Source: Utricularia gibba (taxonomy: Eukaryota > Streptophyta > Magnoliopsida > Lamiales > Lentibulariaceae). From it: a DNA stretch of 64,000 bases. Position numbers and translations under genes: made by a program. The stretch is taken from assembly GCA_002189035.1 (NCBI GenBank), contig NEEC01000011.1, positions 3,100,001 through 3,164,000 on the forward strand, read 5' to 3'. Of this stretch, positions 7,335 through 63,782 are shown piece by piece (within the stretch, counting starts at the first letter, position 1; each line of letters opens with the position of its first letter). The notes beneath the pieces are model-generated. The model was not told the origin of the DNA. It made no database searches and saw only the letters and a list, made by a program, of their open reading frames with translations.

Positions 7335-9316
7335 TCACCGGACTCTTGGTTTGCTATCCCAGATATCTCTGGCCTCTAGAAGTTGCGGGCAGTATCGTTG
7401 AGCCAAGACTTCGACTTGTTCAGCGAATGACTTGATTCCATGGTGACCAATATGTAGAACCATTTGATTCCAGCGTTTCCTGCATATATCTCCTGATCTG
7501 TGTTCAATGAGGTCATCCCAGTTCACATCTTCCAAGCAATTTGCATCCAAAGTGTAAAGCTCAGTGAGAAGGCGATAGTCATCAGCATCTGACCACAAGC
7601 CTTGAGCCACCATTGGAGATGTTAGCTGGTCATACCACTTTATACAGCAAACTGGTTGAGACCGCGTTTCCAACACATCACTAATCGCTGTCCAGCATAT
7701 GTTGTCACGCAACATTCCATGCTTAGATAGCTTCTCCTCGGAAACTTTCTTTTGTAGATCAACATTCACTAGATCAAATAGTTTCTGATACTCTTCCTGG
7801 GACCAATGACCTTTTTTCGTGTTTTGAAGCTTTATTCTACGCCATGTATCTTTGACATGAAATCGGTGCATCCCAATTTCATCTGCAAACGACTTCCACT
7901 CATTCCCATGTTCTTTTTGGTGGTTCAGAAGCATTTGATACTCTTCTTCAGTCCATTTATGGGTCTCTGATCGTCGGAAAAGAATTTGGGCACGGTAATA
8001 AATAGCTCCTTTCGGTCTATAAGGTATAGCCAATCCTATTTCTTTCCAACAACCCTTAGCTTCGGGATGTTTCCTGCAGTTCAAAACCATTTCTAGACCA
8101 TTCTCACCTAAGTTATGCTCCTCTATATAATCATAAACAGCTTGCTTCACAATCTCATCTTCTTCTTTTGTAAAACGCTTGCCTCGCAAAAGCCCATCTT
8201 CTCCAATTGACTCATCATTCAAGGTGACAGGAATGGGATGTATCTGTACCTCATCGGAAAACCTCACCTTCTTATTACTCTTACTAGCTGCAGAGCTATT
8301 GTTCGCGTCCTTCACTATTTTTTTGTCTCTCTGTTTCTTCAAAAGCGTATCACCTGTATTTGCACTATCAACATCAACTACTTTCTTTCTCCGCTTCTTA
8401 TCCCTTCCATGATGTTCTAGTTCATCACTTGGAATTTTATCATAGTTTCCTGACCCATCTATATGGAAATCTTTCTCAGCAGGCGAGAGATTATCTTTCT
8501 TTCTCTCTCTGTTTTTATGCTTTTTATTTCTCTTGAGCTTCTCTGTGGCTTCTCCATCATGTTTATGCTTCTTTTCTTTTGATTCCATTTCCACTCTCTT
8601 CCTCTTCCTCTTCTTCTCCTTCTTAGAGGGTTTCTCACCTTCTCCTACATTGACCAAAGTCATACTAACCAGATCCTTCTCAACTGGGCCATCATGATCA
8701 TTACCACTTTTTAGCACTTTGTTCCTTTTCAAGCCATGATCCTTCTTATGCTTGTTTATATCTCCCAGAGACTGTTCCCCCAGATTATCACCATACTTCT
8801 GGTTGCTAGCTTCTTTTCTTGCCACACTTTTACCGTTGCTTTCCCCTAAAAATTCATCAGTGCCGGAACAATCCTTATTCTTTTTCCTTTTCTTCTTCTT
8901 CTTAGCCAGTTCATCACTGACCACACTTGCATTCACCGAATCCTTCTGAACCGCGGTATCAAGAACATCACTTCTTCTCAGTTTCTTAATCTTTTTCTTA
9001 CCGTGTACCATTTTCGCACTAGAATCATGAGCCCCAGTTCGTTTATTTACATCTCTCTGAGGCAGTTTTTCAACTTCATTACCAAACCCCTTGCCCCTAT
9101 CTTCCTTTCTCGCCGCACTGTCAATGTTACTTTCCCCATTGTAGCGATCCACAACTCCGGGAGAATCAGCATGACCATCTTTCTTTTTCCCCTTCTTCTT
9201 ATCTCGCGACTTCACCTTCACACTCGCGTCCGCATTAAGCTCCACTGCTCTTGAATCCGCAAATGCCTCTTGGCTATCGCTTCCTTTCCCCCCTCCACCG
9301 CTCTTCTACCACCCAT
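7335..9316 (-). CDS. REB1/TTF1-like SANT (Myb) DNA-binding protein, possible RNA polymerase I termination factor; start obscured by an apparent frameshift
   Basis: A single long frame encodes a lysine-rich N-terminal half with repeated KKKKKRKK-type basic runs (nuclear or nucleolar signals). A C-terminal region follows with several SANT/Myb repeats, for example HKWTEEEYQMLLNHQKEHGN, KGHWSQEEYQKLFDLV and GLWSDADDYRLLTELY. This is the plan of fungal Reb1, animal TTF1 and plant REB1-like proteins such as Arabidopsis At5g41020. Reb1/TTF1 stop RNA polymerase I at rDNA; that role here is inferred from family. The frame is open to 9305 without an ATG; the first in-frame ATG is at 9011. An ATG at 9316 is out of frame by exactly one base, and one more base in the C6 run at 9288-9293 would join it to the main frame. 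Start is therefore uncertain (9316 or 9011). Confidence 0.85.
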
Positions 9317-9775
9317 ACCTGCTATTGTAACAACTAAAGCATCTAACGCCCCTCAATGGCTTCGCTACTAATCGGGCGTCCAAGAACGACAGGAACCAAC
9401 AATTCCGAAATGCTTACCAGGCAGATGACGATCACCCCCGACGATCGCGAAAATCCCGTCTGCAATTTAACCCTAAACTTCATTTGGGCCTCTCAGAGGC
9501 CTTCCAATTCAGACATCAGACCCAACTATGTGGCCCATTTCAAGGTAACCCCTTCCTCTTTCAAGAACCCTAAATTACACATTAATACTACATTTTAGCC
9601 TTTATTCGATTTTGACCCCACAAATGAATTCATTCTTCCACTCCTTGTTGGCAACGCAAGCCACCATACATTCAGTCAACATCGCCATCTACCTGTTCAT
9701 CTTCTTCTTCTTCTTCTTCTTCTTTCTTCATCTTCATCAGTTCTCAACACAGAGCCTCGAGTAACCAGAGCAAAA
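9317..9775. promoter_or_regulatory. Divergent promoter region between the SANT gene and the UGT gene
   Basis: The SANT gene (-) and the UGT gene (+) start outward from this stretch. It contains a CTT-rich tract at 9698-9727, likely in the UGT 5' leader, and no convincing coding sequence. Confidence 0.5.
9698..9727 (+). repeat. (CTT)n / pyrimidine-rich microsatellite
   Basis: About eight CTT units lie some 50 bp before the UGT start codon. CT/CTT tracts are common in plant 5' leaders. Confidence 0.8.
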
Positions 9776-11251
9776 ATGGCTAAAAATCCCCACGTACTCA
9801 TCATCCCTTTCCCTCTCCAAGGCCACTTGAATCCCATATTGCACCTGTGCGCTCGTCTCCTCGCCGGAGGAGTCCGTCTCACGATGCTCGCGACTCCCCA
9901 TCTCAAAATACCCTCCCTGGGAATCATCGATCAGATCAATGTCCACATCCTAGAAGATGAAGCCAATGCGAAAACAGCGGCGCCGCAAAAGGATTCCGAC
10001 TTGATCAAGATGTTGGCTGAAAGCTTCAGGGCTTCTGTCACCAAAGGCTTCCATGGAGTCATCGACGAGCATGGTACGGATTCTAACTCCGCATTCAAAG
10101 CTGTAATCTACGACTCGGTTACTCCGTGGGTCCTGGACTTGGCTCATGAGCATGGGATAAAAGGGGCGGTGCTTTTCACTCAAGCTTGTGGGGTGTCCTC
10201 TGTTTACTACCATGTGAGTCGTCGGAGCTTGCAGGTTCCGGGGGACGATGCGTCGGTGATCAAGCTTCCGTCGTTGCCGGATATGAACCGGAGAGACTTG
10301 CCGTATTTCGTGTATGATATGGAGTCATTTCCTTTCATTTTGGATGCTCTGTTGGGGCAATTCTCCAGGTTCGGGAAGGAGGATTGGCGTCTGATCAACA
10401 CTTTCGATGAGATTGAACATCAGGTAAGATCTGATAGCACCTTTCGGTTATCTTCATCTTGGATCGATCCATCATTCGCTCCTGTTGCGTAGGAAATCGA
10501 TTGGTTATCGAGCAAAGCTAAGATTCTTGCCGTCGGGCCGATCATTCCTACCTCCAGCACATTGCTAGAAGACGATCATTCTTGCATCAAATGGCTGGAC
10601 CAGAAACAGGAAAACTCTGTGATCTACATATCGTTCGGGACGGCAGCCGATGTGCCGCAAAAGCAAATCGAAGAACTCCTCGACGCCGTGAAACAGCTCG
10701 GCATCGATTTCTTGTGGTCGGCACGAGATAGCGAGCAGGAGAAGTTCCCGGCTGATTTCGCATCGGATCAAGGTTAGCTCACAAAGCTCCCTTTATATCA
10801 TTCGATGATCCAGTAACCGTTCATAGAATTCATACCTAAAATTGTGCAACGACGTGAAGGTCTTCTCGTGAACTGGTGTCCGCAGACACGAGTGCTCTCT
10901 CACAAGGCGGTTGCATGCTTCGTCACGCACGGCGGCTGGAATTCCACTCTAGAAGCGATTTGTTCCGGAGTTCCGATGGTTGTTGTTCCGCAATGGGGAG
11001 ACCAGACAATGAACGCAAAGCTGATCGCTGATGTGTGGCGGATCGGAGTCCGCGTTAAGTGCGACCGCGCACATATAATCGGAAGTGATGAGGTTGCGAC
11101 GGCGATAGGGCACATCCTGCAAGGAGAAAGCGCGGCAGAGATAAGAAGAAACGCGGCGAGGATGAAAGAGTTAGCTTTAGGAGCGATCGCGGAAGGAGGG
11201 AGCTCCGACCGGAACATGGCTGAGTTTTTGGATGGGCTTTTGAGCACTTGA
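9776..11251 (+). CDS. Family 1 UDP-glycosyltransferase (UGT)
   Basis: Three exons (9776-10423, 10493-10772, 10827-11251) join in frame to 450 residues, the usual UGT length. Such enzymes move a sugar from a UDP-sugar to small acceptors in the cytosol. The N-terminus has the catalytic histidine region IPFPLQGHLNP. The C-terminus has a full 44-residue PSPG donor-binding box starting WCPQTRVLSHKAVACF, containing THGGWNSTLEA and ending PQWGDQ. The final Q and the W of GGWNS are those usual for UDP-glucose users. The sequence around the PSPG box resembles the UGT74/UGT75 group. Acceptor and exact subfamily cannot be read from sequence. Two short GT-AG introns are present. Confidence 0.93.
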
Positions 11252-11552
11252 GATCAGCAAGTTCAAGATACCTTGGAGCCGAGATCATACTCATCATAGA
11301 CCATTAATCTATCATAATCAACACTTTCTGTTGAAACGAGAATTCCCTAATCCTATGCATACAGTGGTATAAATCTACAGTATGTGTGTTACCTATGTTT
11401 CCACCGGCCGGCCGACTTGCGCCTGCTGCTGCCTTTTCCGGCGACACCCATATCGTTAAGAGGGGGCACAGTGTTGGCAACCAGAGAGGTTGAGGTGGTG
11501 GGTGAGGGTAAGGACTCATCTCCTAGAACTTACATGCAGCTAACTGATAGTA
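11252..11552. other. Convergent 3' region between UGT and PWWP genes
   Basis: Both flanking genes end here. No coding or repeat signal is seen. Confidence 0.5.
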
Positions 11553-14372
11553 CTACTGGTGCCGATCAACCAACCCTTCGTGGAGTCTACTGAAAACCAG
11601 GTTGACAGGAATGCAAGAAACTGCAGTAGGCACATTTCCTGCTTTGATCAGGCCGTCTTCATTCCACTGGTCATGTTCTACAGGAATGGTCGAAAGGGAT
11701 CTGACCTTCAGATTGGTGGGTGCACCAAGCTTTGGCGACATCACCAAAACTCTCCTGTCCAAGGGAGGCTGAGCAGCGGCAACTGGTTTCAGGTGAACAT
11801 TTCCAACATCTGATGAAAATGGCCGCTGACTATCATGAGATGGAGCATTTTCATCGCTCTGTGCACCGAACCTTGGTGACACAAATGGCCGTGGAACACG
11901 AAAATTTGCCGTCCTACGGCCAGTCCTCCAAACAGAAGTAAGTGTAGGACTCTCCAGTGGTTCGGAGGATGAGTAACCAGTACTAGTAGAAAGAAAGGCC
12001 GGCAAGCTACCACTTTCAAGGGCTCAACTTGAATAGGATGGCCTATTACGGCATGCCCATTTAGCTTACTTGTCAATGAAATGATGGGAACATTCCTTCT
12101 GTAGCTGTTTCCATTCACCTGCAAGTCTACATCTACCAGCATGAACCTACCACCAGAAGAAGAGTTGGCCTGTGAGCCGTCCCAGTATCCATTTGTTGCA
12201 GAATGATTGTTCCGCAACCGAGGCTCAAAATCAGAGATCTCACAGGAATCAGGCATACCTTTCGGTGAATATTTAGAGAGATGGGATATTTTATCAATCA
12301 AGTCAACTTTGGATAAACTCATCCCACTGGAATTTCTGATACTTCGGTACTTCCTAGATGTTTCTGAACTCCAGGCATCCGGAGCTTTCCTCCACAAGTT
12401 CTGGTTTTTCCTTTTCCCTGTGAAGCGCCCCTTTGAAACCTCTGAACCAGATGACACATGGTTGTACACGAAACGGTGGGCTGCTCCATTACCACAAGGT
12501 TGTTGCCCATCAATATCATCAGTACTGCTAATGCTTCCATGGTCTTCATGGTCATGAATTCTCCCAGGGTATTTGGGCTGCAATTCTATGCAAGCAGAGC
12601 CATCTACAAAATTCGCGCATATCAGGTGAAGAAACAGTTCAGATCAGATAGACGAACCCAACCTTTGCAAAATTAACACAGGTTCTGTTTCAGATAGTTG
12701 GAAGAGGAATTCAGGAGGAATCACTAAACCAATAATGAAACCATGTTCTCAGAGTTAAACGTACACTACCAAGACTACAGCATATCAGCTCAAACCATCC
12801 ATGGGCATTCTCAAGTATTTTACCCGGGCATACCCGAAAGGTCAGGAAAAGCTAAAGAATATGTCCCAACTTGAGCAGGATGAGCATTCATAGGATAAAA
12901 GACTGTGAAAACTACAAAATATCTTACCAGAAAGTTGAGCAATGTCCTCATCCGTGTCTGATTCTAATGAATCTGTCTCTGAGCAATCGGTTTCAGTATC
13001 TACCGTAGACCCAGTCAACCGATCTTCACCAATATCACCAGTGTACATGATTTCTCCAACTTTTGAAACTCGAAAATCCATTGGAGAATACAGAATCTGA
13101 TTATCAGTTGAGCGGCGTGAAGAACCATTGTGCACACGTAAATATTTACTCTGCTTAGTACGAGGTGCAACTCTTGAAGACTCCTCACCTGATTTAGATG
13201 GCAAACCGAAACATAATGATCAGTTAAGCGCAAGCAACTAATATTTTTTGGAAATAACAACTAGAGGTTCAAGAGAAAGGTTGAAATGAACAAGTTACTG
13301 AGGAATCAGTAGCTACTAAGATGGTTTTACCAGATGATGGAGCAGGATGGAGAACACGGTCATGCAAACCCCTCGTCTGTGGTAGCAACCCTGCACTATC
13401 ATCTTTTGCATGCAGTTGATTTCCATCTATTAATTTCTCTTCGAAGAGCATGCTGGTCTCATTCTTCTCACAGACAGATGAACCTAGATTCCCAAATTCA
13501 GGATTATATACACGGACGCCCTTATTTTCCCTTCCATTTTCATTGTAATTTGAAGAAGTCGCCCCATCTGGTGATACTTTGCTCCTAGCCCACGACGAGT
13601 TATCTGAATTCCCATGTTTTTTCTCCACTAATTGTCTCTCCAGTTCCAGTGCATGCATGATTGCATCTTCTCGACGCGCATATTTCTCTCTCTTCTTTGG
13701 AGGCATGTCTTGAGCTGCTTCAGCCCTTTCTATACAGTCATCAAATTCACCACATCGAAATGCCTTAACACGTTTCGACTTTTCCAAATTGTACCAATCC
13801 CTGATGATAAAGATATGCCAAGAAAACCAGACATAACCACCTGCTTCGTGAAAAATCAGGACTATAAAGCACATAATAATTCTTCGATTTCTAGCAAGTT
13901 TTAACAGAAATTTCAGACGCTCATCAACATATGTGAAAATCAGTAAGGCTATGAGATTGTCGAGAGAAAGCTATAAAATTTAAGATGAATCGGAATTTGC
14001 TAGAGGTGAGAACTAAAACAACTACACTAACAGGCACGCTACAATATCTGAAGCTTCGATCACCAACAGAGATCAACTGATGCATAGGTTAAACAAAGCC
14101 TATCCACAAATAATTAGAACCAGCAATCACACAAGAAACAGTAAGCAATCCAACACAAAATATTTAGTAACATTTTGGGCTTACACACTGGCATCTTCTC
14201 TCCCCAGAAGCTTTACCGGAGTGCCAGATCGAGGAGATGTTATATGCGAAGCGGAGAGCTCATCAGGGCCCAGAATTTTTCCAGGCCACCAAGATCCATT
14301 TCGTCTCCTAACCCACACAATACTTCCCACGCTGCAATCCGTCACCCCTCCGCCTGTATCTGAGCTACCCAT
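11553..14372 (-). CDS. PWWP (Tudor/PWWP/MBT) domain protein with one apparent frameshift
   Basis: Four exons: 14372-14185, 13800-13331, 13188-12928 and 12603-11553. Exon 1 encodes a PWWP domain start (GSIVWVRRRNGSWWPGKILG), a fold that reads methylated histone or DNA in the nucleus. The following exon has DWYNLEKSKRVKAFRCGEFD and a basic PPKKREKYARRE patch. It matches plant proteins of the At1g51745/At3g21295 type, whose role is poorly known. In exon 4 the frame ...GHPIQVEP must shift by one base at the CCC run (12020-12022, GGG on +) to continue into ESGSLPAFLS... and a conserved C-terminus (SVWRTGRRTANFRVPRP, ending VSCIPVNLVFSRL). As written, the reading leaves that conserved frame about 150 residues before its normal end. 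One added C restores it. The long, conserved reading downstream argues for a sequencing error or very recent mutation. Confidence 0.85.
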
Positions 14373-14744
14373 CCTTCCAACCTCCCGACGCTTTTCTTTC
14401 CACTTCTATGAACACAAGTATTCTCAAAAGAAACAATCTTTCTAAACCTCAAAACATCCAATGCTTACTTTCTGCTCAACTGCTTCCGTACCCCTTGAGT
14501 CGATCTCAACCAACCTCAGTAACTGTCGCAATACCCATTCAAACTGAAACCATTTTACCAGCAGATGAACGAAGCGAGGGGGGACCAGCTAGACGTCTGA
14601 TCTGATGATCAGGGTATCTATTGGAATCAACTGATTATCTACCGCAAACCAATTGAGAGAAGCGACGATCGGCGAACGCTCTTGTCGTCGGCATTCAGAG
14701 CTCCTGAGCCAAGAAACTCGAGAATTGGCGCAATATGGGAGCGA

Positions 14745-15264: not shown

Positions 15265-17424
15265 ATGGATTTCTACGTGCTCACGAGAAGAGAGCTGCAG
15301 AGCCTCTGCAAACGGAACAAAATCCCTGCCAATATGACCAATGTCGCGATGGCGGAGGCTTTGGATGCGTTGGAGATGGTAAGTTTTTTTGTGGTTTTAT
15401 TGTGTGCTTCTTTCAGTGCGACGTAGTTGGGAGATTTTTCTGATTTGTGGTTCGATTTACACAAAATGAAATCTGTTTGATAGTTTCCGAGGATCTCGAT
15501 ATGATTATAAGTGTTTTATTTTTATGTTCAGTGGAATACGCTCAGTTTTGATAGAAATAGTAAACCTTGTGGTTCGCAGGTTACCGGGCTCGAGGAGATT
15601 GGACCGGGAGGATCAGATCTGATGTCTCCGTATGTTCCTACCGCTGGGAAGAGTACCGGGAGGAGGATAGCTGTTGAAAATGAACCAACAACTCAGAAGG
15701 CGACTCGTAGTACTCGGAAAATCAGCCAAAAGGATCTGGGTAACGAAGAAATTCAAACTCCCGCTGTATCACAAGCAAGACGAAGGAAAGATCAAATTGA
15801 TTCGGCTTGCGGGAACATTGATTCCCAGATGGAGAGTTGTATCGATGAGGAAGAGATTATTCAAGCCACGCCTGCAAATCTGGATGTTAATGGCCGGAGA
15901 GGAAGAGTGAAGAAAGTGGATACCGCAGTCAAGAGCGTGTATAATACACGACGATCAGCAAGGTTGGCAAAGAAGACCGGGAAACTCGATCTTGATATGA
16001 ATGAAAATACGCACCTTCCTAAAATTGATGTGGCAGCAATGGAATATATTCGAATTGTGGATGTAAAAGAAAACATCAACGAAGCGGACGAGACCTCCGT
16101 AATTACTGGTATTTTTCTGATCATGTCAAACACTGAATATGCTAAAAATGGTCTACATGTGCTATATGATTTTTGTTTCGTGTATTTTTTTTTTCAGAAC
16201 TAGATGTTTCGAAAACAGGGGAACAATGTGTCGCTGAAGGTGAACCAGAAGTTGATTCCGTGGAGCAACATGATCTGTCCACTGCAACTGCAACTGAAAC
16301 TAAGGGAATGACCATCGAAAATGTTGAAGCTGATGATACAAAACCAGTTGAGGAGCCATGTGATGCAGAAGGCCAAGAAGAAGTTGCTTCAGTGCAGGAG
16401 CAAGAGTTATCAATTGAAAATAGGGAAATGTCTGTCCAAAATGTTGAAGCTGATGATGCAAAATCAGTTGAGGAAAAATGTGATGCAGAAGGTGAAGAAG
16501 AAGTTGTTTCATTGCAGGAGCAAGAATTGTCAATTGAAAATAAGTCAATGATTCAAGAAAATGATGAAGCTGAGAATACAGAACCAGCTGTGAAGATTGC
16601 CAATGAAGCTAAAGGTGAACATCCGAAATGTGAGGATATTGGAATCACAGAAGAATCATTCACCAACTCCAATTACGATAATGGATATGAAATGGAATAC
16701 CAGGCTTGTGTCCAGTTGCATGTCAAAAATGGAGGTACTGTGACATTGCACGGAATTTGTTAGATTTCGGCTTTATGTTATCATCGTATGCCTACTCACT
16801 TTCTGTCCTTCCTGTTCATGAGCAGATATTTCTGAAAATACTGGCCTTGTTGAGATGGATCAACAGATGAATGGTGTAGCAACAGATTCCCTGATTCTCC
16901 TTTCTGATTTTGATGGAGTGGTGAATGAGGATGGAAGCATTCAGAAGAGGAAAACTTCCAGTTTCCCATTGGAAATTCTTGACAACATCCTGACGCCTCC
17001 TACTGATGAAACCAAACAAAGTTCTCTGGAGACAAATGATGAGATCGAAGGATTAGAAGCAGTTGCGGAGACTCCAGCCCTACCCAGCAAGCAAGTAAAC
17101 ACTGCCATGAAGGGTGGAGAAACCAGTTCCCTCGCTTCAATTGAAATGAATCTTGAAGCTAAGAATCAGTCTGCATCTGAGTACGGAAGGCAGCAGAATC
17201 TGAACACGCCGAAGAGAGAACCTACTACAAAGAAAAAGTTCACTCTAGTTGCATCAGACAACAAGGAGAACATTTGCAGTGGCAGTGGGACTGAGATAAA
17301 ACTTGCTCTCACTAAAGAGAGAAAGAAGATTGCAAAAAGCGCTGGTGCAAACTGGGCATCCCTGAGCCTCACACAGCTGAGAAGGGAAGTGAAAGAAGCT
17401 TTGAAAGCTCACAATCGGATCTGA
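15265..17424 (+). CDS. Acidic KEN-box protein, plant-specific, related to At5g17160/At3g03130; function unknown
   Basis: Four exons (15265-15378, 15580-16108, 16198-16734, 16826-17424) join to 592 residues. The N-terminus, MDFYVLTRRELQSLCKRNKI followed by PANMTN, resembles a short SAP-like helix pair. Basic patches with TRRSARLAKK follow. The middle is strongly acidic and contains two near-identical 40-residue repeats plus a partial third, encoded by a 120-bp tandem repeat (16320-16590). The C-terminal part has KEN in ASDNKENICS (17263-17271), an APC/C degron type. It ends in a conserved helix, WASLSLTQLRREVKEAL. Its neighbour ENH1 is also the neighbour of At5g17160 in Arabidopsis, which supports orthology. 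The MSA element upstream and the KEN box together suggest cell-cycle control; no biochemical role is known to me. Confidence 0.85.
16320..16590 (+). repeat. 120-bp coding tandem repeat, 2.3 copies
   Basis: The phrase ATGTTGAAGCTGATGAT occurs at 16321 and again at 16441, and a diverged copy begins at 16561, giving an exact 120-bp spacing. Each unit encodes about NVEADD..PVEE.CDAEG..EEV and ends in QEQELSIEN. The period keeps the frame. Confidence 0.9.
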
Positions 17425-17636
17425 ACACTGATTCTGATCTCCAAAGAACCGTCCACCCTAGAGATGCACCCTGTCTCTTCTGGTATTATGATAAACAAGT
17501 CCCTTTTATTGCCCAGTTTGCTCTTACGTGTTGTACTCAATTTCTATATTACCCGCTGGTAATGAAAGTTTGCTTTACAATTTGCTTGAGCAACTCCTCG
17601 ATTTGCACAGAATATTAGAATCATAAGGTGGGTGGT

Positions 17637-18989
17637 TTACTGGAGTCCATAGACCAACAAAGCCCCAACTCCCCCAATGCCAGCAACAAGTCCAATGATG
17701 ACTCCGATGGGAGGCAAACCTCCTCCAGCAGCCTTTCCTGTGTTAACATCATATCTTGCAAACCTCTTCTTTGGAGCCCTGCATTGTGGGCATGCATAGT
17801 CTTCTGCCTGCATTTAAAAAACTCACCATTTTTTTTTATCACAGGAAGGTTCAATAGCAGAAATTGTTGTTATACTGCATCAGCTTACCAGTTCCTCAAA
17901 AGGTTTTTGCTGTGTGTATATGTATCCGCAATCGAGGCAGATATGTGTAGCACGCTCCTGAAACATTTGAAGTCTGAGAATTTCTCCCAGGAAACATTAG
18001 TCGATAAATGAAACTGCTATCCAGTCTTGCCTTTTGAGCCTCAGTTAATTTTCTCCCAAATGCTGGGGAGCTGGACGCTTTTGAAGCCTTTTGACGTCCA
18101 CTTCAGCACCTCTGCAAGATAGCGAATCAAAAGGATGTTAACATTTACTTCTATGGGATTACTTCAAATGTTCTTGACAGGAACTTGACCTGCTGACTAT
18201 GAAGTATACTGAGTTAGGCTTGGCCTGAATGGCGGTTTTGGTGTAGCTTAGTTTATCAGCAGGCCAAAGTTCATCTCCGAAGAAGCTGCTGGTGTAAAGA
18301 ACCTGGTCCCCAGCTTTAAGCCCTGCTTTTGCTGCATTTCCACCATTTTGCACAGCCTGAACCAATCATCTAAATATTTGGAGAAGTGCACCAAAATATG
18401 TGACATGAGAACTACAGAAGGTTGTGATGCAATACTCACAGTGATGACAACCCCGCCTCCTTCCTTCTGCCCAAGTGTCAACCCCAGTGGCTTATCAACT
18501 TCGACCTCGATGGTCTTGGAAGCTGCAGACTTTCTGGCATTGATCTCAAGCACCCTTTTTCCTACATTTTTAGTGTTGGCAGCTACCAAAGAAGTGAAAG
18601 AAGCCCCTTTTGCCACCGGAATAGACAGCCCAAGGAAGCTAGTTTTCTGTTCATTTCAGAAAAAAGGGTCATTCGAAAGCAATCAAAACTCCCACAATTA
18701 GTATCAGAAAGTTACAAAATGCAATAGACATGGTAAGAACGCCCTATACGCCGGAAACTTTATCTCAATCCCATCTAACCCACTCTCTCTGAATAGGAGA
18801 TATGATTGAAAGAGCAGCATTCCTGTTCCCGGTTTCCCGCCGTTGCTGAAACGGAATCTTGTAGAAACTGTGAAGGTATATGTATCGGAGTACCTGAAAC
18901 TGTGGGGCTATCCAGCTAGTTGGGTTCTTTTTCAGATGTTGCCTGCTGAATGAAGAAGAGACACCAGCACCAGCCATTGCTGATGCCAT
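17637..18989 (-). CDS. ENH1: ENH1-like plastid PDZ + rubredoxin protein, with one apparent frameshift
   Basis: Six exons. After a plastid transit-like N-terminus (MASAMAGAGVSSSF) comes a PDZ-like domain (PLGLTLGQKEGGGVVIT, NAAKAGLKAGDQVLY). Next is a rubredoxin with paired cysteines (HICLDCGYIY and YACPQCRAPKKRF) that would bind one iron. A C-terminal membrane helix, GVIIGLVAGIGGVGALLVYG, ends just before the stop. This is the plan of Arabidopsis ENH1 (At5g17170), a thylakoid protein linked to redox homeostasis and salt tolerance. In exon 4 the frame breaks at RPAP. One more C in the C4 run (GGGG at 18065-18068 on +) gives KRPAPPAFGRKLTEAQK, matching the family; as written a TAA follows eight codons later. 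The next intron (17958-18030) has a GC donor. The gene is head-to-head with the gene at 19238. Confidence 0.9.
17958..18030 (-). other. GC-AG intron in ENH1-like gene
   Basis: The exon ends CTCAAAAG and the intron begins GCAAGACTGG and ends TTTCAG before GAGCGTGCTAC. Joining gives TEAQK-ERATHICLDC, matching the rubredoxin entry in ENH1 proteins. AAG|GCAAG is the typical strong context for a GC donor. Confidence 0.8.
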
Positions 18990-19237
18990 CGGAGTGTGTT
19001 TCAGAGTTCAAGATCGCTTTTTGTTGGAAGATGTTGAGTGGCTCGGATTTCAGGTTAAGATAACATAACATTTCAGGACTAAAATACCCTTTTCAAACCT
19101 ATGAACCACAAGTCAGTTGCTTTGGGCAAGGTTAGAAATGTAGTAGTTTTTGGGAAAATTTAAGGTTAGAACGAGATGCCTCCAGTGTAGAACATGGGAG
19201 TTGTGCAGATCCATTTGATCAATAGCCATTAGAAGAG
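18990..19237. promoter_or_regulatory. 248-bp head-to-head promoter of two plastid-protein genes
   Basis: The start codons of ENH1 (-) and the small plastid membrane protein (+) are separated by only 248 bp, so both leaders and promoters must share it. No clear TATA box was seen for either side. Confidence 0.6.
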
Positions 19238-30129: not shown

Positions 30130-30961
30130 ATGCCGCCGCCGCTGCCGTCAACCAATGCCCATCTCATAAAAATCACGGCTTCTCTACACGAGGCTATCTT
30201 CACTGCCTTTTCAGCATTCGTCTTGTTTTCAAGTTCCGCAAAAACCACCTCCCTGTTCTTCCTCCTCAGCAGAGTCAATCTCTCTTTGCCCCTACACCTT
30301 CGGAAATTCCCCAGAATGTCCCTTCTGGTGAGCAGAACCATAGGCCCCAGAAACTCGGAGCGTCTGACCCCTGCCTTCGCCACCCCTCAGTCGTTGTCCG
30401 ATTGGTTAAAGCCGCGGATGTGCGCCGATCTATTGGTAGCAGTGTTTCTGGGGTTTATGGAAACGTGAGAATACTGCCAGGATCATATGTGAAGAAGGTG
30501 GAAGAAGGTTTCGTCATCGAACCCAGGTTTTCCTGCTTGCTATTTTCTTCATATCGTTGATGCTGAGGCAGAAGGCTTGCCTGATGGGGATTTCAGCACT
30601 TACGATACCGAAGATTATGGGGACTTGGATGAGGCAAACGCTGCTGTTTCCTGTAAGAAGCAATACTGGAGATGGGTTGATTTTGATTCGGTTTAAATCT
30701 ACTTCTGCTTTGCTCCTGTATCCGCTGGCTGCAAGAACTGATTTTTGGTGAATGTACGGCAAAATTCGTCAACTGTGAGCCTTTATTAAACATGCTTTTC
30801 CTCAAATCTTCATGCAGCAAAAATCAACTCACTGATACGCATGAACGTAAGCCATTGGCAGGAATAGAATGTGTGGACTCCTGATCTCGAGCTCTACCTC
30901 TCTAAATGACTGCACTTTGTAAGTGGCGCAATTCAGAAAAAAAAAAAAAAAAAAAAAAAAA
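30130..30961 (+). pseudogene. Decayed gene fragment ending in a poly(A) run; possible retrocopy
   Basis: A + frame starting at ATG 30130 is open for 112 codons and contains RLTPAFATPQSLSDWLKPR, which I recognise as a conserved plant protein segment but cannot name. The reading stops at 30468. Protein-like pieces then appear in other frames (VRILPGSYVKKVEEGFVIEP and AEGLPDGDFSTYDTEDYGDL). A 25-base pure A run lies at 30937-30961. This mixture fits an eroded gene, and the A run would fit a processed copy. A real gene with unseen introns, or the 5' part of a rearranged gene, is possible. Insertion-site duplications were not identified. Confidence 0.35.
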
Positions 30962-36426: not shown

Positions 36427-37948
36427 TCAGAAACAACGTAGGGTTCGGTTATGGTTTTCTGGGCAGAGTTTGCCGAGCGGGGACTCATCGGAGTGCTCAT
36501 CCACCAGCCATAATCCATGCTCCTTGAACCGATGGATTTTGCTGTCTTTCCCAGAAATGTAGTTGTTGTGGATGATGGCATGTTGTCCCTTGGTTTGCTC
36601 AGCCCACGCTTTGTCACCGAAATAAGTTAGCCCATAGGGGAACGCCGTCGCCGGAAGAAGATAATCGTCAACCTGTTAATTGCATTATGTATCTGATCGC
36701 CGGGAATGGCGGAGCAAAAGAAGGGATGGTACCTTCCCACGAGTCTGGCGGATTGCCCAATTCAAAGGGGGCTGATCATTCACTCCTGGACTCCATTCTA
36801 GCGAGCTCATCCGATCGGCCCACGTGCTCATCAGTAATTTTGCCCCCGGCGTGGGTCTCAGATAAAGCAAGCAGCTACAATTCTGGAGATCAAACAATCT
36901 CATTAGCAGAAGCTAAGTATCGTCACTAAACATACTATACATTGCATCTGGTTTTTGGTTTGTTGTACCCACACCCCTGCTTTCAATTTGCTTGCTTGTG
37001 AATTCTGATAGTGTTATTTGCAGTGTAATAAGAACTTACGTTTTCCCCATCAGATGCATAGTACGCATCGTGCGACCCTTGGAAGTATGGAAATGGGTCC
37101 TTCATCCAGACAGTATCAACGTCGTTGTACAGAACGTTGTACCCCAGCTCTAACACCTGCACAGTCCTCATCCCTCTGCGTCAGAATATTGTAAGAAACC
37201 AGTTCTTCTCCTTTCTGAGCATAAATTAAGTTGAGCACACCCAGACAAAGGGAGCGTACCTCAAGAAGATGGCGTGGCCTTCTGGATGTGAAATTGAAAA
37301 ATCCCTTCAAAAAGGAGAAAACCCTAATTGGTAGCATGCAAAAACACGAACCCAAGTACAGCTTTGTGTTTGCTTTAGTTGAGATCTAACTCTTAAGAAG
37401 TGTAGGGTGAGTGTCATCTCTTTATGTTTGGCTTTGTTATTCTGTCATGTAAAAAACTCATGAACCCTAATCACGTCACACGAAACGGTTACCATGGAGC
37501 CATAAATGTTAGATGCAGGGTCCAGCGGCGGGGACGCCATGACGGCGTGCCCCGGCCACCTCTCGTTGACGGTGTATAGCGTCGGATAATCCTCGGCGAA
37601 CACCAGAACTTTATCCGCATGCTTCAGTCTAGCAAGGCTGATCAACCAGTTGCTTAGCATCTGCAGATACGCCTCGCCCACCGAACACACGATCACCGTG
37701 TTGTCCTTCGCGACATACGCCGCCGCGTCCCGGAGCGTGTACTCCCGCCACAGTGAACCTGGACTGTAAAACTTGGAAAGCAACAATATCGGGTTCCGAT
37801 TAAGAGATGCGACACCGATCATCGTCAGCCAGGATACGAGCACTAGCACGAGGGTGAACGGGACCCAGAGCAGGAAGGACCGGCGTGAAGTTCTAAGTGA
37901 CTCCTCCGTTCCCCCATCATGGACGCTACAATCGCCTCCCTCTGTCAT
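36427..37948 (-). CDS. GT77 nucleotide-diphospho-sugar transferase, RGXT/MGP4-like (copy 1)
   Basis: Five exons from ATG 37948 to TGA 36427. A short acidic cytosolic end is followed by one signal-anchor helix (WVPFTLVLVLVSWLTMIG), typical of Golgi type II glycosyltransferases. The catalytic domain has NTVIVCSVGEAYLQMLSNWL, VLVFAEDYPTLYTVN, ERWPGHAVMASPP, then FFNFTSRRPRHLLE and the DxD-bearing GYNVLYNDVDTVWMKDPFPY. It closes with CSCLLYLRPTPGAKLL, GVNDQPPLNWAI and HAIIHNNYISGKDSKIHRFK. This order matches Arabidopsis RGXT1/RGXT2/MGP4, which add xylose to fucose in rhamnogalacturonan II. Donor and acceptor here are inferred. All key motifs are intact. It is a tandem duplicate of the gene at 39436-40986. 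Confidence 0.88.
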
Positions 37949-39435
37949 TGCAAACGAAGTCAAAAGCTCACACCTTTCTTCCCTTGTCAAGCTATCACCT
38001 TTTATGCTTCTAGATATGGAATCTTAGTATTAGGATTTCAAACTTTCGTTGACTAGAAATTCAATTTGCATTGAAAATAAAAAAAAAAACTGAAATATCT
38101 ATAAATTCAGGTCTTACACACACATTGGATCATGAATTTCAAGCATCTATCATAACCAAATGATGTGTTTTTTATATTTTATTAGCAGTAAAGTTAGGGT
38201 TTTCAGTATCAAACGCATGATTAATTAACATTAGGGTTTTCAGTATTGGGGGTGCTTCACACGCAATATTCGGCCCCCCGAGCGCCCCCTACTCTAAGCC
38301 TAGAGGTTCCCTCTCCTCCCATAAGCCATGCTCTTGAAGGAGACGAGTGCCCACAGAACTTGGGCACAGGAGCTCATCATTGACGCTCAACACTCACCTC
38401 TCATCATGGCATGTGTAAAAAACTGTGGCTTTCATGAAACCTTCCTTTGGGTAAAAATCTGGAGACCTGATTGACTCTGCTGCTCCTCATCACAGTAGCC
38501 AGCCACCATTCCCAATATGAACTGCAACAGGGAATCGTTCCTTCAAGTTTTTACCGCATTTAAACGCCCCGAAGTGGAGAATGCAACTGCCAAGTACCAA
38601 CCAGGGGGTGGGGTTTCTGTGTCTCCCATTCTAAACTTTCGCCGGTGAAAAATAGCTCGCCATTTTCCGATGTGGAAGCCACACCGGGGTGCAGTTCAAC
38701 TTAGCAGTTAGATCATTGTAACTTGTCCTCAGGTTTCAACTGTCAACTGTTGACATTCCAGGTTGCACATCGCCAGTTGCCGAAATCAGCGGCTCAGATG
38801 TTGCCTCCCCTTAGAGTTGACTTTCAAGATTCCTCCTGTCGACAGAACCCAACGGGTCAATGTTGACATGTGTGATGATGTTGTTGAAATTCAGGATTAA
38901 ATGGATCGACGAGTGTACACATAAATCTCAAATATTTGTATACTAGATTATTAGAATTTCATATTTCGTTATTATATATTAAATTATTTTATTTTTATTT
39001 TTCGACGAAATATTATATATTTTAACATCCCCTAAAATAATGAGCTGCGAGAGTAATATCAGTTCTGAAAAGTCGCGTTTTCATTTTTCCGTTTGGGGAC
39101 ACGTTTTATAGCAAGAAAGCAGTGTGTTGTTAGAGGACTCACATGATAAAAGAGAATAAAAATGCAAATCAGTATTTTTTTTCTATTAGTAAATATTTTT
39201 TTATTTTAAAATGTGAATAATAAATTAATATAATTTTAAACATTTGAGTGTAATTAAATAATTAATTTAGAAGTATTATTGCACAGAGCAAAATATAACA
39301 CACCTTCAAATGGAATTTATTAAAATCAGAACCATATAAAATCGGGAATTGCAAAACAGCCCCCGGATCCTGTTGCGAAATCCTCATCGTCTTTCTTGAA
39401 GGTATGAGATAAAGCAACGGGGTTTTGTTTGAGTT
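37949..39435. other. Intergenic segment between GT77 copies
   Basis: Contains repeat segment 1 (about 38235-38900), then AT-rich sequence, and ends in the 3' flank of copy 2. No gene is seen. Confidence 0.6.
38235..38900. repeat. Duplicated non-coding segment, copy 1 of 3
   Basis: Shares long stretches with 41210-41820 and 44448-45130: an ACGCAATATTCGGCC block at 38261, a GAGTGCCCACAGAACTTGGG block, and a TCAACTGT..TGTTGACATTCC block near 38740 followed by GGCTCAGATGTTGCC. The TTGAC cores in this block match W-box type motifs. Confidence 0.8.
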
Positions 39436-40986
39436 TCAGAGACAGCGTACGGTTCGGTTATGGTGCTCTGGGCAGAGTCTGCCGAGCGGGGACTCATCGG
39501 AGTGCTCGTCGACCAGCCACAATCCACGGTCCTTGAACCGCTTTATTTTGTTGTCTTTGCCGATGATGTAGTTGTTGTGGACGATGGCATGTTGTCCCTT
39601 GGTTTGCTCCGCCCACGTTTCGTTTCGGAAGTAGACAGCACCGGAGGGGAACGCCGTCTTCGGAAGAAGGTAATCGTCAACCTTTGTGTGGGTTGAAATA
39701 TGTTTGCGTCAACATCTCGTGACCGGGAATGGCGGAGCAGAAGAAGGAAGGGATGGTACCTTCCCACGAGTGTCTCTGATTGCCCAATTCAGATGGGGTT
39801 GATCATTCACTCCTGGTCTCCACGGCTGCGACTTCAGACGATCGGCCCAGGTGCGAATCAGTAGTTTTGCCCCCGGAGTGGGTCTCAGATAAATCAAGCA
39901 GCTACAATTCTTAAGATGAGACAAAATCAGCAGCAGAAACTAAGTATCGTCATCACAGATAGTATGTACCTTGCTTCTAATTTCAGGCGACAATGGCTGC
40001 ACTAATCTAGTAGAAGGAAAAGGCACTGGTATACCCTTTTAGTCTACCTTAGAATCTGTATCTGGTTTTTAAATTACAGTACAGCAAAATTGAGACTGAA
40101 ACACACTCCTGCTTTCAATTTGCTTGCTTTTGAATTCTGATAGTGTAATGTGCAGTAGGATGAGAACTTACGTCTACCCCATTACTCGCATAGTAGGCAT
40201 CGTGCGATCCTTGGAAGTAAGGAAAGGGGTCCTTCATCCAGACCGTGTCAACGTCGTTGTACAGAACGTTGTATCCCATCTCCAAGATCTGCACAATCCG
40301 CATCCCTCTGTGTCAGAATATTGATAGAGGAAAAGGTTTCTTCTGCCTTTCTGAACATATCCTGAGAAAGGTGCGTACCTCAAGAAGATGGGTTGGTTTT
40401 CTGGATGTAAGATTGTAAAATCCCTTTGACAGGAAGAAAACCCTAATAGTTACCATGCGAGAACAAGAAAAGAAAAGAAACTGGAAAGGGAAGGGAAATG
40501 AACCCTAGTAACGTCATACGAAATGGTTACCACAGAATGAAAATTGTTGGCTGCAGGGTCCAGCGGCGGGGAGGCCATGACGGCGTGCCCCGGCCACCTC
40601 TCGTTGACGGTGTATAGCGTCGGATAATCCTCGGCGAACACCAGAACTTTATCCACATGCTTCAGTCTGGCAAGGCTGATCAACCAGTTGCTTAGCATCT
40701 GCAAATACGCCTCGCCCACCACACACACTATCACCGTGTTGTTCTTGGCGACATACGCCACGGCGTCCCGAAGCTTGTACTCCCGCCACACTGAACCTGG
40801 ACTGTAAAAGATGGATAACAACAACATGGGGTTCCGGTGAACAGAAGCGACGCCGATCATCGCCATCAACGACGCGAGCATGAGCACGACGGTCAACGGG
40901 GCCCGGACCAGGAAGGACCGGCGTGAATTTCTTGGTGATTTCGCCGTTCCCTCACTATGAATACTGCAATCGCCTCCCCCTGTCAT
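39436..40986 (-). CDS. GT77 nucleotide-diphospho-sugar transferase, RGXT/MGP4-like (copy 2)
   Basis: Tandem paralogue of copy 1 with the same exon layout, ATG 40986 to TGA 39436. The N-terminus is MTGGGDCSIHSEGTAKSPRN followed by a signal-anchor helix (VRAPLTVVLMLASLMAMIG). Then come NTVIVCVVGEAYLQMLSNWL, VLVFAEDYPTLYTVN, FYNLTSRKPTHLLE, the DxD segment MGYNVLYNDVDTVWMKDPFP and CSCLIYLRPTPGAKLL. It closes with HNRTVRCL. Differences from copy 1 are mostly conservative and all visible catalytic motifs are kept, so both copies look functional. Both 3' ends share flanking sequence (AAACAGCCCC near 36313 and 39355), so the duplicated unit is about 3 kb and includes promoter and 3' UTR. Confidence 0.88.
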
Positions 40987-42578
40987 TACATAAGAAGCCA
41001 AAAGCTCACACCTTTTTAGCAATCACCTGTTAAGCTTCATTACATGGAATCCATTAATATCATGATTTCAAACCCTTCTTTGGCTGGAAAATCAATGTAC
41101 AATAAAATAATACAGAATAATTATTTTTAAATTCAGGTCTCATCGGTAACCCTAATATTAATACGGAATAATTTACCACAGAATCTGAAGTTGCCGTATT
41201 TGGAGTGTTTCAGAGTAATACACGCAATATTCGGCCCCTCCCATAGCCATGTTCTAGGCAACAATACAGTAGCCAGCCACCATCCCCAATATCAACTGCT
41301 ACAGGGAATCGTTCTTCTTACCGCATGTGAACACCTAAAAGTGGAGGATGCGACTATCTACTATTAGAACAAATAATTCATTAAGAAATGAAATTGAAAT
41401 AATTAATTATATAAGAAATTATAGATTAATAATAATTGATTGGGACTAATCTAATCTAATATAATTTACGTTTTTTATATACTTAGACTTTACATTAATT
41501 ATCCATCTAATCTTTAATTTCAATATGCATTACTAACCCTTGGGTTTCCCATGTTGAAGCCACACCCGGATGCAGTCGACCTTAGCAGTTAAATCATTGT
41601 AACTTGTCCTTAGGTTTCAACTGTCCACTGTTGACATTCCAGGTTGCCCATCGCCAGTTGCCCAAATCAACGGCTCAGATGTTACCTCCCCTTCGAGTTG
41701 ACTTTCAAGATTCCACCTATTAGGGACACGTTTTATAATAACAGTACTGAAAAGTCGCGTTTTGATTTCTCCCATTAGGGACGATATTGCAATATTTAGG
41801 TGTTTGTGCCTAAAGGAACGTCCCCTTAAGACTAACATAAGATAATATTTTAAGTACCAAGAGTTTATTGGACCAACAATTACTTATGGTTGAATATATA
41901 AGATCGTAACGAGTTTCGAAATGGTATACTGTGAATAATTTAAATCATTTTCGATTTGAAAGATATCATACCATTTTTATTAGATGTCTCCTCAAGGTTA
42001 TTATTTTAAATTTCAACAAAATTAAAAATTTTGATTTTTTTTTAGAAAACAAATCATTCTTGTAATATGATCAAAATTTCAGTTTTTGTATCAAATACGA
42101 AATCCGAATTTTGACACATGGATTACAAAATGGGCATGGAATCCAATACTTTGCGTGGTGTTTGGGGCCTTGGAATATGCAGATTCCCTCTCATAATCAG
42201 CTGTGGGTTCCAATCGCCTCTTCTCCATGAATATCAATATTATGAATGTATTTAATAAAAAAATCGGTGCCGCATTTTACAAATATTACTAATTGTTTGG
42301 ATGAGCGTCATTCATGAATCTCGGCGTTCTGTTCCTAATGCTATAATCCACGTGTTTTTAGAATTTGGAATAAAAAATGATTTTTTTATTGTTTTTATTT
42401 ACGCGTCTCAAATTGACGAAGTTCACACAGGAAAAAAAAAAAGTAATGACAAAATATTCAACGAGGCCAACTGTCAGGGAGACGTTTTTCCACGGATCTC
42501 GGGCCGGCGGGGACGAAATTGAACGGCAAACCAAACGCAGAGCGGAATCCAAAGACGAGTGTGACGATTCACGATCAC
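40987..42578. other. Intergenic: GT77 copy 2 upstream region
   Basis: Contains repeat segment 2 (41210-41820), interrupted by an AT-rich stretch at 41390-41510, then AT-rich sequence up to the SAUR gene. No gene is seen. Confidence 0.6.
41210..41820. repeat. Duplicated non-coding segment, copy 2 of 3
   Basis: Begins with CACGCAATATTCGGCC at 41221 and includes AGTAGCCAGCCACCAT and AGGGAATCGTTC as in copy 1. An AT-rich insertion at about 41390-41510 is followed by the TGTTGACATTCC block at 41629 and GGCTCAGATGTTACC. Confidence 0.8.
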
Positions 42579-55614: not shown

Positions 55615-58409
<2,795 letters not shown>

Positions 58410-58528: not shown

Positions 58529-58560
58529 GAGCGGGGGTGCATCGTTCCCTCGTCACTCGT

Positions 58561-58576: not shown

Positions 58577-58681
58577 GAAATATCCGGGTTATGTAGTCGC
58601 GTCTGATCTGTTATTCGACCGCAGCTGCGTGGACAGCGGGCCTCACGTAGACCAAACGCAGGGGATTATTGTGTCATGAGT

Positions 58682-58697
58682 GTTGACGTGGCCCAAT
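58682..58697 (-). promoter_or_regulatory. ERSE-II element 2 (ATTGGGCCACGTCAAC)
   Basis: Second ATTGG-N-CCACG match, same orientation, 106 bp farther upstream. A diverged third copy lies between them near 58641-58655. Confidence 0.7.
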
Positions 58698-58952
58698 CAC
58701 ATACAGAGAGAAAGAGCTGAGACCAATAGAATTGCTCCGCTGACTTGGCGGTGTCTCTGCCGCTCATATGCCCATCCTACGGTCAGTGAATTTTCTCTTT
58801 TGTTTCGGATTAAAATATTTTATAGTTGATTTTCTTTAAAAAGAATTAATTCAACATTTTATAATATAAAATTCTAAAATGCGCGATGGGCTTTTAGGTC
58901 AACCCCATATCACTCCACGTGTACGCATCCATTGGTCACAAATTGCAACTCA

Positions 58953-60564
58953 TCAGTATTCATCAATGTAAGTGTCCAGCATATCATCCTTCCTGGAGCT
59001 CCGCCGGGAGAGCAGGGCTTTTAGGAGGCGTTTGCTCTTTCCGGGGACAATGTCGCCGTCTTTCGGGGTCTGCACCGACGAAGATTTTCGGGGCTCCGGG
59101 AGTACCTGAAGCAACAAATAAGTATCACAAAAATATTAATGCATTTGCGCACAGGGTGTGTTAGGACAGGGGGAAAGAGGTTGAGATGCTGACAAATTGC
59201 TGATCATGTGATGTAGGTGTGGTTGGCCGGCTGTTACTCGGCGTGGTCGACCGTGAGGTTCTAGCAGTCGATGATGGCTTGATCGAGACTGGCCGGAGAA
59301 CTGGAAGCCTGTTTGGTGAAGCATCTGTTCTCCTTCCTGTACCCCAAAAACAGAGCATTGTATCTGACCATTAACCTGATGGTTTATTCAGCTTTAAAAG
59401 ATGAAGAAGGAGCAAACCTGAATCTTTGTTCGATTTGTTGCTTGGTAAGGAAAGGCTTCCTTCCTTTTGAGCAAGCTTAGGAGGTGGCGGCGGTGATTGA
59501 TGGAGCCTTTTACTGCAATAGTTTGAGTTCATAGAATGGTCCCTTGACTATCAAGACGAATGATGAGCTCATATCACTAACCTGATTTCTGGGATTGGCA
59601 GTTGCGGGTCTTGCATTGCGGCTCGAATGGCTGTCAGAACAACCAGTTGTAACTCTTACAAGCAAACATGGATGAAATGAACACCAGAAAAGGCTATCCT
59701 TACAGTTCTTAAGTTGACGCCAACCATCTTTGTCCTCAATGATGCATCCTTGGAACCTTGATTTGGTCCTAACCCCACCACGCATTGTCTCTCCCACTAA
59801 AAAGAAGAGTGCCCAAACAGAGAGATAAGAGTATAATGAACAATGAAAAATGATTCCAATGATAAAAGAGGACTGGTTACATGGCAAAATGTATCGATTA
59901 TAGTATTTTGGTGTGTTGATCGCTAGTCTTTGCTCTTTAACCCCTTCGCGGTCGAAGTATTCCCGGCACACGTGCAATCTCTAAATCAACAAGGAATGGA
60001 AATCAAAGCAATCAGTATAGCTGCGCAACAGAACTTCAGAAAGTACCTGCTGAATGCAGGATATGCGGAGTTCGGCTCGAGAAGCATCATCGATCTTTTC
60101 ATCCACTAAACTATTGACTCTGTAACTCATTGAGCCCAAATGGTCCACTGTATTCACGAGAGCCTTCATGGCGTAGTCCTTTAAAGTGTTCATGACCCTG
60201 CACAATGCGCTCATCTTTATTGGAGAAGGTAAAGATGGAACACCGCAGCTTACTAGCATCAACTCACACATGCTTTTGGTCGTCATTTGTATAAGAAAAC
60301 TCAAAGTATTCAGCAGCCGAATAAAGCTGTTTCCTCAGATTCCTCAAATCCTGCACATAGCACAGCATCATGAGCAATTCCCAGAGTCATGATTGATAAC
60401 TATGGCTGTTTCAAGTGTTTAGCAACTCAGGGTTTCCATGAAATGAATCAAGAAACTACCTTTAAACTCTCATGAAACATCAAATTCTTCTGCGTCGCAG
60501 CCTCACCATGAATGGCTGATTCTCGAGCAACCGGCATCAAAGAAGTTTCAGCCACAGATTCCAT
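58953..60564 (-). CDS. ABI-like protein (ABIL), SCAR/WAVE complex subunit
   Basis: Multi-exon gene, ATG 60564 to TGA 58953. The start [16 protein letters not shown] precedes a conserved helical region: [77 protein letters not shown] and [20 protein letters not shown]. Ser/Pro-rich spacers ([22 protein letters not shown]) follow, and the conserved C-terminus [19 protein letters not shown] ends LDTYIDEY. This matches plant ABIL1-4, which with SCAR, NAP1, PIR and BRICK activate ARP2/3-driven actin branching. Neighbour BiP also flanks ABIL4 in Arabidopsis. The exact ABIL number is not assigned. Confidence 0.9.
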
Positions 60565-61588
60565 TGAGGAGCTGTGTTATGAGAACACAGGTCAAAACTA
60601 CATTTTCTGCGGCGACAGTTTTCACAGCAGAATGAGTACGCTTAGCCAAACACTTTCTTTCAAGTTTAAGACTCCAAACAGAAACAACAAGAAAGTTGGA
60701 TGCAGGCTTTTTTTAACAACAGAAAAAAAAAAAAAAGGAACAAAAGAACCATACAGAGCTTGTTCCCACTTAAAGAAGTGTTTAATGATCTAAATTTTCT
60801 TCACAAAGCACCGGAAATCACGGCCAAAGGAGACAAAAAGTAAACCTTAAACAGTTCTACCAAGTTCCACCACTATGTTGCTTTTACGCCTAGCCGAGGA
60901 ATGAAAAGCTGAAAAACTGCAAACCAGATGGCAAATGAATGGGAAAATGCTGACCTTCAAGAGTAATGGATTGCCATTCAACCCACCAACCAAACCACCC
61001 ACGAGCATTTACACAATATAAACCCCGTATTCGTGTCATCTTCAACCGAAAAATGAACTTTTGTGACCACCCACATTCAGTTTTCGATCACAGAATCTGT
61101 TTTGCGAGAGAAAAAGGACAAATTGAAGCAGGCCCACTAATCCCCAAGTCACTATTATGATTTAGGCACCGATTGACTAAACCCCAGAAGCAAATGTCAA
61201 CCTTACTTTCTGTCTCCTTCCTCTGGCGGTAACTTGGAACGCCATTACTGTGAGAGTATGTGCCAAATCAAGCTATTTAAATGGCGACCGATCAAAACAA
61301 GGAAAAAGGAATCCGAGAGCCTCGGAGAGAGGGGATACCAACGGATAGTACGCTATATCTAAATGACTTTAATACCCTTACCAGTACTCTTTAATTACCA
61401 CACGTCCATTCCCAATGAATGGGAGTTGGGGGACAACCGTTGCCGATGGACCACAAGGTCTAAATAGACATTACACTCTTAACAACAGACCACGTGGCCA
61501 ACCCAGTAACTAATAATAGACAATTATTAATAATAAATTACTAATAATACCAAAAAAATTGCATGGAGACAAGACCCATTTTAGCGTT
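60565..61588. promoter_or_regulatory. ABI-like gene upstream region and 3' flank of the coiled-coil gene
   Basis: Probably contains the ABIL promoter and a long leader. AT-rich at 61500-61560. No gene was recognised. Confidence 0.5.
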
Positions 61589-63782
61589 CTACTTGAGATG
61601 TCTGATGCCATTGCAGGCCAGGGTGCCTTCGAGGTTTCCGATGATTCGGGATATTCGGATTTCCAGCCCCGTTTGAACTTCTCTGAAGAGGGTTCTCATG
61701 GTGTCAGCAAATCGTTTTGCTTCGAACCTCTGAGCACGTTGGATCTTCGCTTCTTCGCCTTCATATAAAAGGGAAATCTTGGCTTGCACTTGTGTTAGCT
61801 TTTGCCCTGTTGCAACCATATACCGCTGTAGCTGAAAGGTTTCTCCTAGAAAATGCTCCAGGATCTTGGTATCATCTCGTCTAGTAGAATTGCCTGGACG
61901 ATCTCTGCTTGAATCCAGGTTGTTTTCTACCTGCGGTTTGTAGAAAATAGAGGGAGTATGTGAGGATAGAAGACACAGGAATCGAGTTTATGAATAAAAA
62001 GGTGTTCGTGCTAGAGCGACCATTCGTTGGCAGAGATCGTCTGTTTTTCCTTGAAGGGACTGATAGCGATCCACCTGTTTGCTGAGAAGTGATATCAGCA
62101 TTGCATTGCCTTCACTCTCAGTGCTCCCACATTCTTGCTTTCCCTTCAACCTTTCGAGTACTAGAAGTTGCTGCTTCAGCCTCTTTATCTTGTAAGTAAC
62201 TCCGAGTGCATGAAGGTCTAGTTTCCTGGTGGAACCGTTGAATTCAGTTCTCTTTCTGGTGCAGGCAACATCATTTGAGACTATAATCGAATGGGGAGCT
62301 GCATCGACCACCGCATCCTTATTAGGATATTCAATAGCCAAAACTACGTCATCGAGCTGATCATCACTAGGGTATTTCTCCACCTTAACTTCTTGCATTT
62401 CATCTTCTGGAGTGCTGTTGACGAAGCTTTCTTCGTAGCAGATAATGCTGCGGTTAGTGGCTTCTTCGCTCGGAGATGAATTGAACTCCTGCTTGTGGAG
62501 ATCTGGAGAACTTTGACTCGCTAACTGCTTTTGTTTCAGTGCATGCAGCTCTCTCTTTTGATCTAGAGTCTGTGCCTCGAGCTTCATGTTCTCCTTCCTC
62601 AGCTGTGCAAAGTCTCGTTCCAGTGCATGGACGTATGATCGCAACTCCTCTGTTTCTGCTTCGGTTTCCAACAAACTAGATTGAAGGGCTTTCAGGCTTT
62701 CATCTTTGAGTCTGAGTCGCTCAACAAAAGCTTCTATCTCGACATTATACCTTCCCCATCTTCCTCCTCCAAATCTGCTTCGTGTTCGTCGCTTGCGGCG
62801 GCGATCAAATACGGTTCGGATGCAAGGGAAAGCATGCCATTTCCTCTTCTCATCTCAGGTTGATCATAACTTTCCATTTGGTTAAACAGCAAGTTTTTGA
62901 ACAAATGTTTCTCATTCTTGGACTCTTTCCACTTCTCTGCTTCTGGCTTTCTTGCTTCCTCATCTTCCTTATCGATTTAAATCCCTTCAAAGGAAACTGT
63001 CTGTCTTCCTCAGACTTCCCCCGGATAGCAGATAGCAACTGGTCCTTTTGCTCCAATTCCCTGCGCAGCTCCGTTAGCTCAGCAGACAATCTCTGGTTCA
63101 TGGCCACAGCTTTCTCCTTCTGCTCCCTTACCGGATTCGCTGCTTCGAGTCGTCTCTCAGCCCGGTTCAGCTCCGCTTGAAGCTGTCTCTGAGCTGAAAC
63201 AAGCTCTATAATGGCGGTCTTGTGCTTCATAATGTGCGCTGAATGGCGCTCAGCTTCGTGCCTTGCAATTTCCCTCAGCTCATCAACAGCAGTCTCAGCT
63301 GCAGTGGCCTTTTCCTCCATCTCCCGTCTCCTCTCTTCGATTTCTTCGATCTGTACATCCTTTTCCAGCACGAGACTCTCACTTTCCTCCAGCCTTCGCC
63401 TTAACTCAGATGCGCATTTTTCACCATCTGCCTCAACTGCTCTCACTTCATGCATAAGTAACTCTATCTGTTGCCTGAGGATCTTCCTCTCATTGAACCA
63501 GCTCTGCTCTTTTGCAGCAAAGATGCTCACTACCCTCTCATTCGCCTTTGATTCTTCATTTCTTCGTTTGATCAATTCCTCGATCTGTCTTTCAGCGGTT
63601 TCCAGCTTCCGAACACTCCACAGACATGCTCCAAATAGATATGAACAGCAAAAGCTGTGTCTCTCAGGCTCAGATGAGACATTTAGAGCAAAAAATGCAC
63701 AAGAAACACCAAGAAACACAGGGTAGAAACTGTCAATCCTCTCCTGATACGCAGCAGGAACAGAGGCTGCATCTTCATCCAT
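61589..63782 (-). CDS. Plant coiled-coil protein of unknown function, with two apparent single-base frameshifts
   Basis: ATG 63782 to TAG 61589. After MDEDAASVPAAYQERIDSFY and PVFLGVSCAFFAL the protein is a long coiled coil (for example KRRNEESKANERVVSIFAAK, EERRREMEEKATAAETAVDE, AELTELRRELEQKDQLLSA). Conserved later segments are YNVEIEAFVERLRLKDESLK, HALGVTYKIKRLKQQLLVLE and GLEIRISRIIGNLEGTLACN. It resembles plant coiled-coil proteins whose role I do not know. The frame breaks twice. At 62976-62978 one more A gives KGFKIDKEDEEARKPEAEKW. At 62754-62757 one more G (coding strand) gives DGGRYNVEIEAFVERLRLKD. Both repaired readings fit the conserved plant sequence, so errors are likelier than decay. 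As written the main frame ends early. Confidence 0.8.

Follow-up and report, generated by a model that had tools for sequence, protein, structure and literature searches.

The reading-frame breaks at four of five sites (sites 2-5) in a 64-kb stretch of Utricularia gibba DNA, here called the window, are very probably residual consensus errors of an assembly built from PacBio reads only, and the break at the fifth (site 1) is probably another. This explanation is supported by the one-sided pattern of the breaks, each of which is one base short, by their C/G-run context, by purifying selection on broken copies, and by disagreement in run length between contigs. The assembly searched comprises 100.09 Mb in 516 contigs, and the window is part of a 3.42-Mb contig (C255, 3,424,836 bases). 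We infer that it is the U. gibba assembly produced with HGAP from PacBio data at 88x, with a contig N50 of 3.4 Mb (PMC5793159). On this account PacBio reads would come out short at brief runs, most of all at C/G runs of 3-7, Quiver would then settle on a consensus that lacks one base, and the error would persist because accurate short reads played no part in correcting the assembly. The genes would thus be intact in the plant, whose own DNA would be one base longer at the five positions. Under-calling of this sort is an ordinary sequencing artefact of a kind already known.

The gene content of the window is that of a plant, and includes UGT, NAC, pseudo-response regulator, Dof, BiP, PWWP and ENH1-like genes, the names being mostly recognised from the translations. 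The gene for BiP, the ER HSP70 (55615-58092, minus strand), is intact and provides an internal control for conserved coding sequence. Two similar glycosyltransferase-like pieces lie in tandem on the minus strand (37445-38023 and 39436-41022), an apparent local duplication.

Frame breaks at the five sites

Direct reading of the window found all five runs exactly where the earlier note on this DNA had placed them; they affect four genes, all on the minus strand. Site 1 (C6 at 9288-9293, G6 on the coding strand) lies close to the 5' end of a gene with Myb domains (by Pfam; REB1/TTF1-like), the ORF of which has 656 codons and spans 7335-9305; the frame shifts here between this ORF and an ATG at about 9317. 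This break is unproven, because a second copy of the gene was not found in the genome and because, the site being N-terminal, an ATG further downstream could serve as the start. Site 3 (G4 at 18065-18068, C4 on the coding strand) belongs to an ENH1-like gene with PDZ and rubredoxin domains (17619-18990; rubredoxin by Pfam), of which no second copy was found in the same genome. Here a base is absent between 'RPAP' and 'FGRKL', and the two halves of a single exon lie in frames that differ by -1, so that the flanking frames demand one extra base; the joined reading would agree with plant ENH1 proteins. The same gene has an apparent GC-AG intron (AAG|GCAAGA) at about 18030 on the minus strand.

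The window has homeologous counterparts at two places in this genome, C508:336-402 kb and C1:7.328-7.394 Mb, which provide an internal test of its frame breaks. The PWWP-domain gene (11553-14402, minus strand; PWWP by Pfam) carries site 2 (G3 at 12020-12022) in its last exon, where the paralogs on C1 and C508 are both open and the window falls short of them by exactly one base. Since the base aligned with this gap is A in both paralogs, the loss of an A, outside any run, is more parsimonious than the loss of a C or G from the run. Sites 4 and 5 both fall in a coiled-coil gene (61589-63782, minus strand), the C508 paralog of which is one continuous frame of 682 aa, whereas the window shifts frame twice, by -1 each time. 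A scan for open frames indicated that the single insertion required at site 4 could lie anywhere in 62857-62735, and the C4 run at 62754-62757 is the plausible spot for the missing base. At site 5, the frame opens wherever one base is inserted from 62979 to 62851, an interval of 129 nt, and the T3 run at 62976-62978, at one edge of this interval, is therefore one candidate position among others.

Comparison of the window with its paralogs gave w values of 0.33 for the PWWP gene and 0.25 for the coiled-coil gene, and neither nonsense codons nor larger deletions were found in the window's coding frames of these two genes. Relaxed selection on the broken copies was not found for the PWWP gene, in which the window branch, with 33.5 synonymous and 38.5 nonsynonymous changes, carries a slightly higher share of the latter than the C1 sister with 31 and 20 (P 0.15), or for the coiled-coil gene. 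In the C1 homeolog of another gene, that at window positions 15266-17424, two single-base -1 gaps occur within about 35 nt (C1:7344180-7344215).

When 31-nt stretches of the window are drawn at random, 86% contain a run of at least three bases; we therefore rejected nearness to such a run as evidence, and it lends no support at sites 2 and 5. C/G runs of at least four are present in 11% of random stretches and at three of the five sites (sites 1, 3 and 4, with runs of 4-6; P about 0.013 against random window stretches). The coding sequence of the window is estimated at roughly 27 kb, for which the rate in the conserved families described below predicts 2.3 breaks; the five observed (P 0.08) give a density above the family average and not far outside it. 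The earlier note had held that one added base per run restores the frame at every site. As regards the missing base this is borne out at four of them, sites 2, 4 and 5 being -1 relative to intact copies in the same genome and site 3 being -1 by its exon frames, but the placement in a run was over-precise at sites 2 and 5. It was also right that no site requires the removal of a base: all of the breaks are of the missing-base class and none is +1.

Conserved families and redundant contigs

As a genome-wide control, the HSP70, PTR and cellulose synthase (CesA) families were searched for breaks, defined as neighbouring matches in different frames with no intron-sized gap between them. The 119 kb of coding DNA contained ten breaks, at a rate of about 0.8e-4 per base: six in 30.6 kb of HSP70, four in 48.1 kb of PTR and none in 40.3 kb of cellulose synthase, the last of which indicates that the rate varies. 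All ten are one base short. Breaks of the +1 class, sought by the same criterion in the families and in the homeologous blocks, were not found, and with the five sites and the two gaps in the C1 homeolog, 17 of 17 breaks are -1. Nine of the ten family breaks (C451, C496, two on C255, the C1 HSP70, two in C1 PTR genes, C4 and C414) adjoin C/G runs of 2 to 5, as judged against intact paralogs or conserved frames, and a remaining C/G run of at least four is found at six, compared with the 11% expected (P 3e-4). The P450 and Cpn60 families, both intron-rich and both kept outside the tally, yielded no clear break, 92 of the 269 P450 candidates having been scored.

The broken cytosolic HSP70 genes on C451 (C451:3343885) and C496 (C496:433393) have dN values of 0.02-0.03 with dS >1, giving w of about 0.009-0.025, and contain no stops. 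Purifying selection on these two genes is thus very strong, which makes a loss of function unlikely unless it was extremely recent.

Small contigs C241 and C376 duplicate parts of the larger C304 and C413, respectively. Such redundant contigs can be used to measure the assembly's own error rate. Over 10 kb, C241 (31 kb) and C304 show no mismatches and seven single-base run-length indels, located in runs that in their longer version are G2, A8, A12, A5, C4, C3 and G4. A further 3.5 kb of redundant comparison contained five run-length indels and four mismatches, and 2 kb were identical. C/G runs of at least three hold six of the 12 differences, while they make up about 7% of positions (P 8e-5). 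In all redundant pairs together there are 15 indels, every one of them at a run of at least two and eight of them in C/G. Alleles would differ mainly by substitutions; C241 and C304 differ instead as one piece of DNA would from itself if its consensus were called twice. This evidence concerns the assembly and not the five sites themselves.

The systematic homopolymer under-calling proposed in the earlier note thus finds good support at the level of the assembly, mainly for C/G runs, in the family breaks, in the purifying selection on broken HSP70 genes and in the disagreement between contigs. Its application to every site is not supported, as site 2 favours a lost A, the base missing at site 5 need not belong to a run, and the break at site 1 is unproven.

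A true pseudogene, a probable one, and rival explanations

That the genes surrounding the five sites are all intact is not supported. A Nudix-like gene at 30130-30690 (plus strand), absent from the earlier note, has lost about 325 nt from its core and a further 2 nt, and has intact homeologs on C1 and C508. Its window branch has five synonymous and six nonsynonymous changes, compared with 12 and none for C1 (Fisher P 0.005), indicating relaxed selection; judged from these sequence comparisons, it is a true pseudogene and the fifth broken gene of the window. A second case lies on C304, where the frame of an HSP70 gene is broken by -1 at C304:2236268, away from any run and in the same way in a second contig; comparison with its tandem neighbour gave w of 0.54, suggesting relaxed selection, and the break is probably real and the gene a pseudogene. 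These duplicate-gene pseudogenes resemble the genes at the five sites in having frame-breaking deletions and intact copies elsewhere, but their relaxed selection, larger deletion or non-run position is mostly absent at the five sites. True and false breaks thus coexist in the assembly and are separable by selection, lesion type and run context. The earlier prediction that gene sets from this assembly would be falsely truncated finds support in the ten -1 family breaks in 119 kb, but it does not extend to every break, since the Nudix-like gene is a true pseudogene and the break in the C304 HSP70 gene looks real.

A rival view is that function was recently and genuinely lost by deletion at some or all of the sites, in duplicate genes of a genome that has shed many genes. 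In its favour, a true pseudogene lies inside the same window, the HSP70 break on C304 is away from any run, shared by two contigs and accompanied by w of 0.54, and sites 2, 4 and 5 lie in genes with further genomic copies. We nevertheless consider this unlikely. The breaks all lack precisely one base, the frames of the PWWP and coiled-coil genes are otherwise free of nonsense codons and larger deletions, the broken genes are still under purifying selection, the genes of sites 1 and 3 are single-copy, and the same pattern is repeated at C/G runs in essential families.

Heterozygosity offers another explanation, in which the consensus took the haplotype bearing a deletion at some of the breaks. 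Some haplotype difference may exist in this genome, as C376 and C413 differ by four substitutions and three indels in 5.9 kb; but the absence of substitutions between C241 and C304 is unlike alleles, and the direction of the breaks is -1 without exception, so that we regard this explanation as very improbable. No more probable is the view that the breaks are illusions of annotation, with introns, overlapping exons or alternative starts as their cause. Apparent breaks of frame in three other genes, NAC, PRR and BiP, were indeed rejected, being introns, and an illusion is possible at site 1, but the paralogs are intronless across sites 2, 4 and 5, and the gaps are far under any plausible intron length. 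There is a negligible probability that the plant's own runs have the assembled lengths and that slippage at short C/G runs, in transcription or on the ribosome, restores the proteins during expression.

Other PacBio assemblies and consequences for gene counts

Residual errors of consensus, the explanation preferred here, have been documented in other assemblies of this type. The HGAP3 and Quiver assembly of one bacterium, with a genome of about 3.2 Mb, had 561 single-base homopolymer deletions, of which >90% were removed by Illumina correction (PMC4888979); this corresponds to about 1.8e-4 per base, the same order as the rate in the families examined here. Quiver frameshifts at G runs have been reported (PMC4853030), and in another assembly, prior to correction, indels numbered 25,352 and substitutions 1,798 (PMC5964635). 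These PacBio HGAP/Quiver assemblies share with the present case the loss of single bases in homopolymers, a great excess of indels over substitutions, and false frameshifts, and in them the errors vanish on correction with short reads. The present case differs in that it is deduced from the assembly itself, concerns notably short C/G runs (3-7), and comes from a plant genome.

The result serves as a warning about the assembly. Were the family rate of ten breaks in 119 kb typical of the whole genome, false frameshifts would affect a noticeable share of the assembled genes. In that case counts of gene losses and pseudogenes in this small genome would be inflated unless accurate reads are used to correct the consensus.
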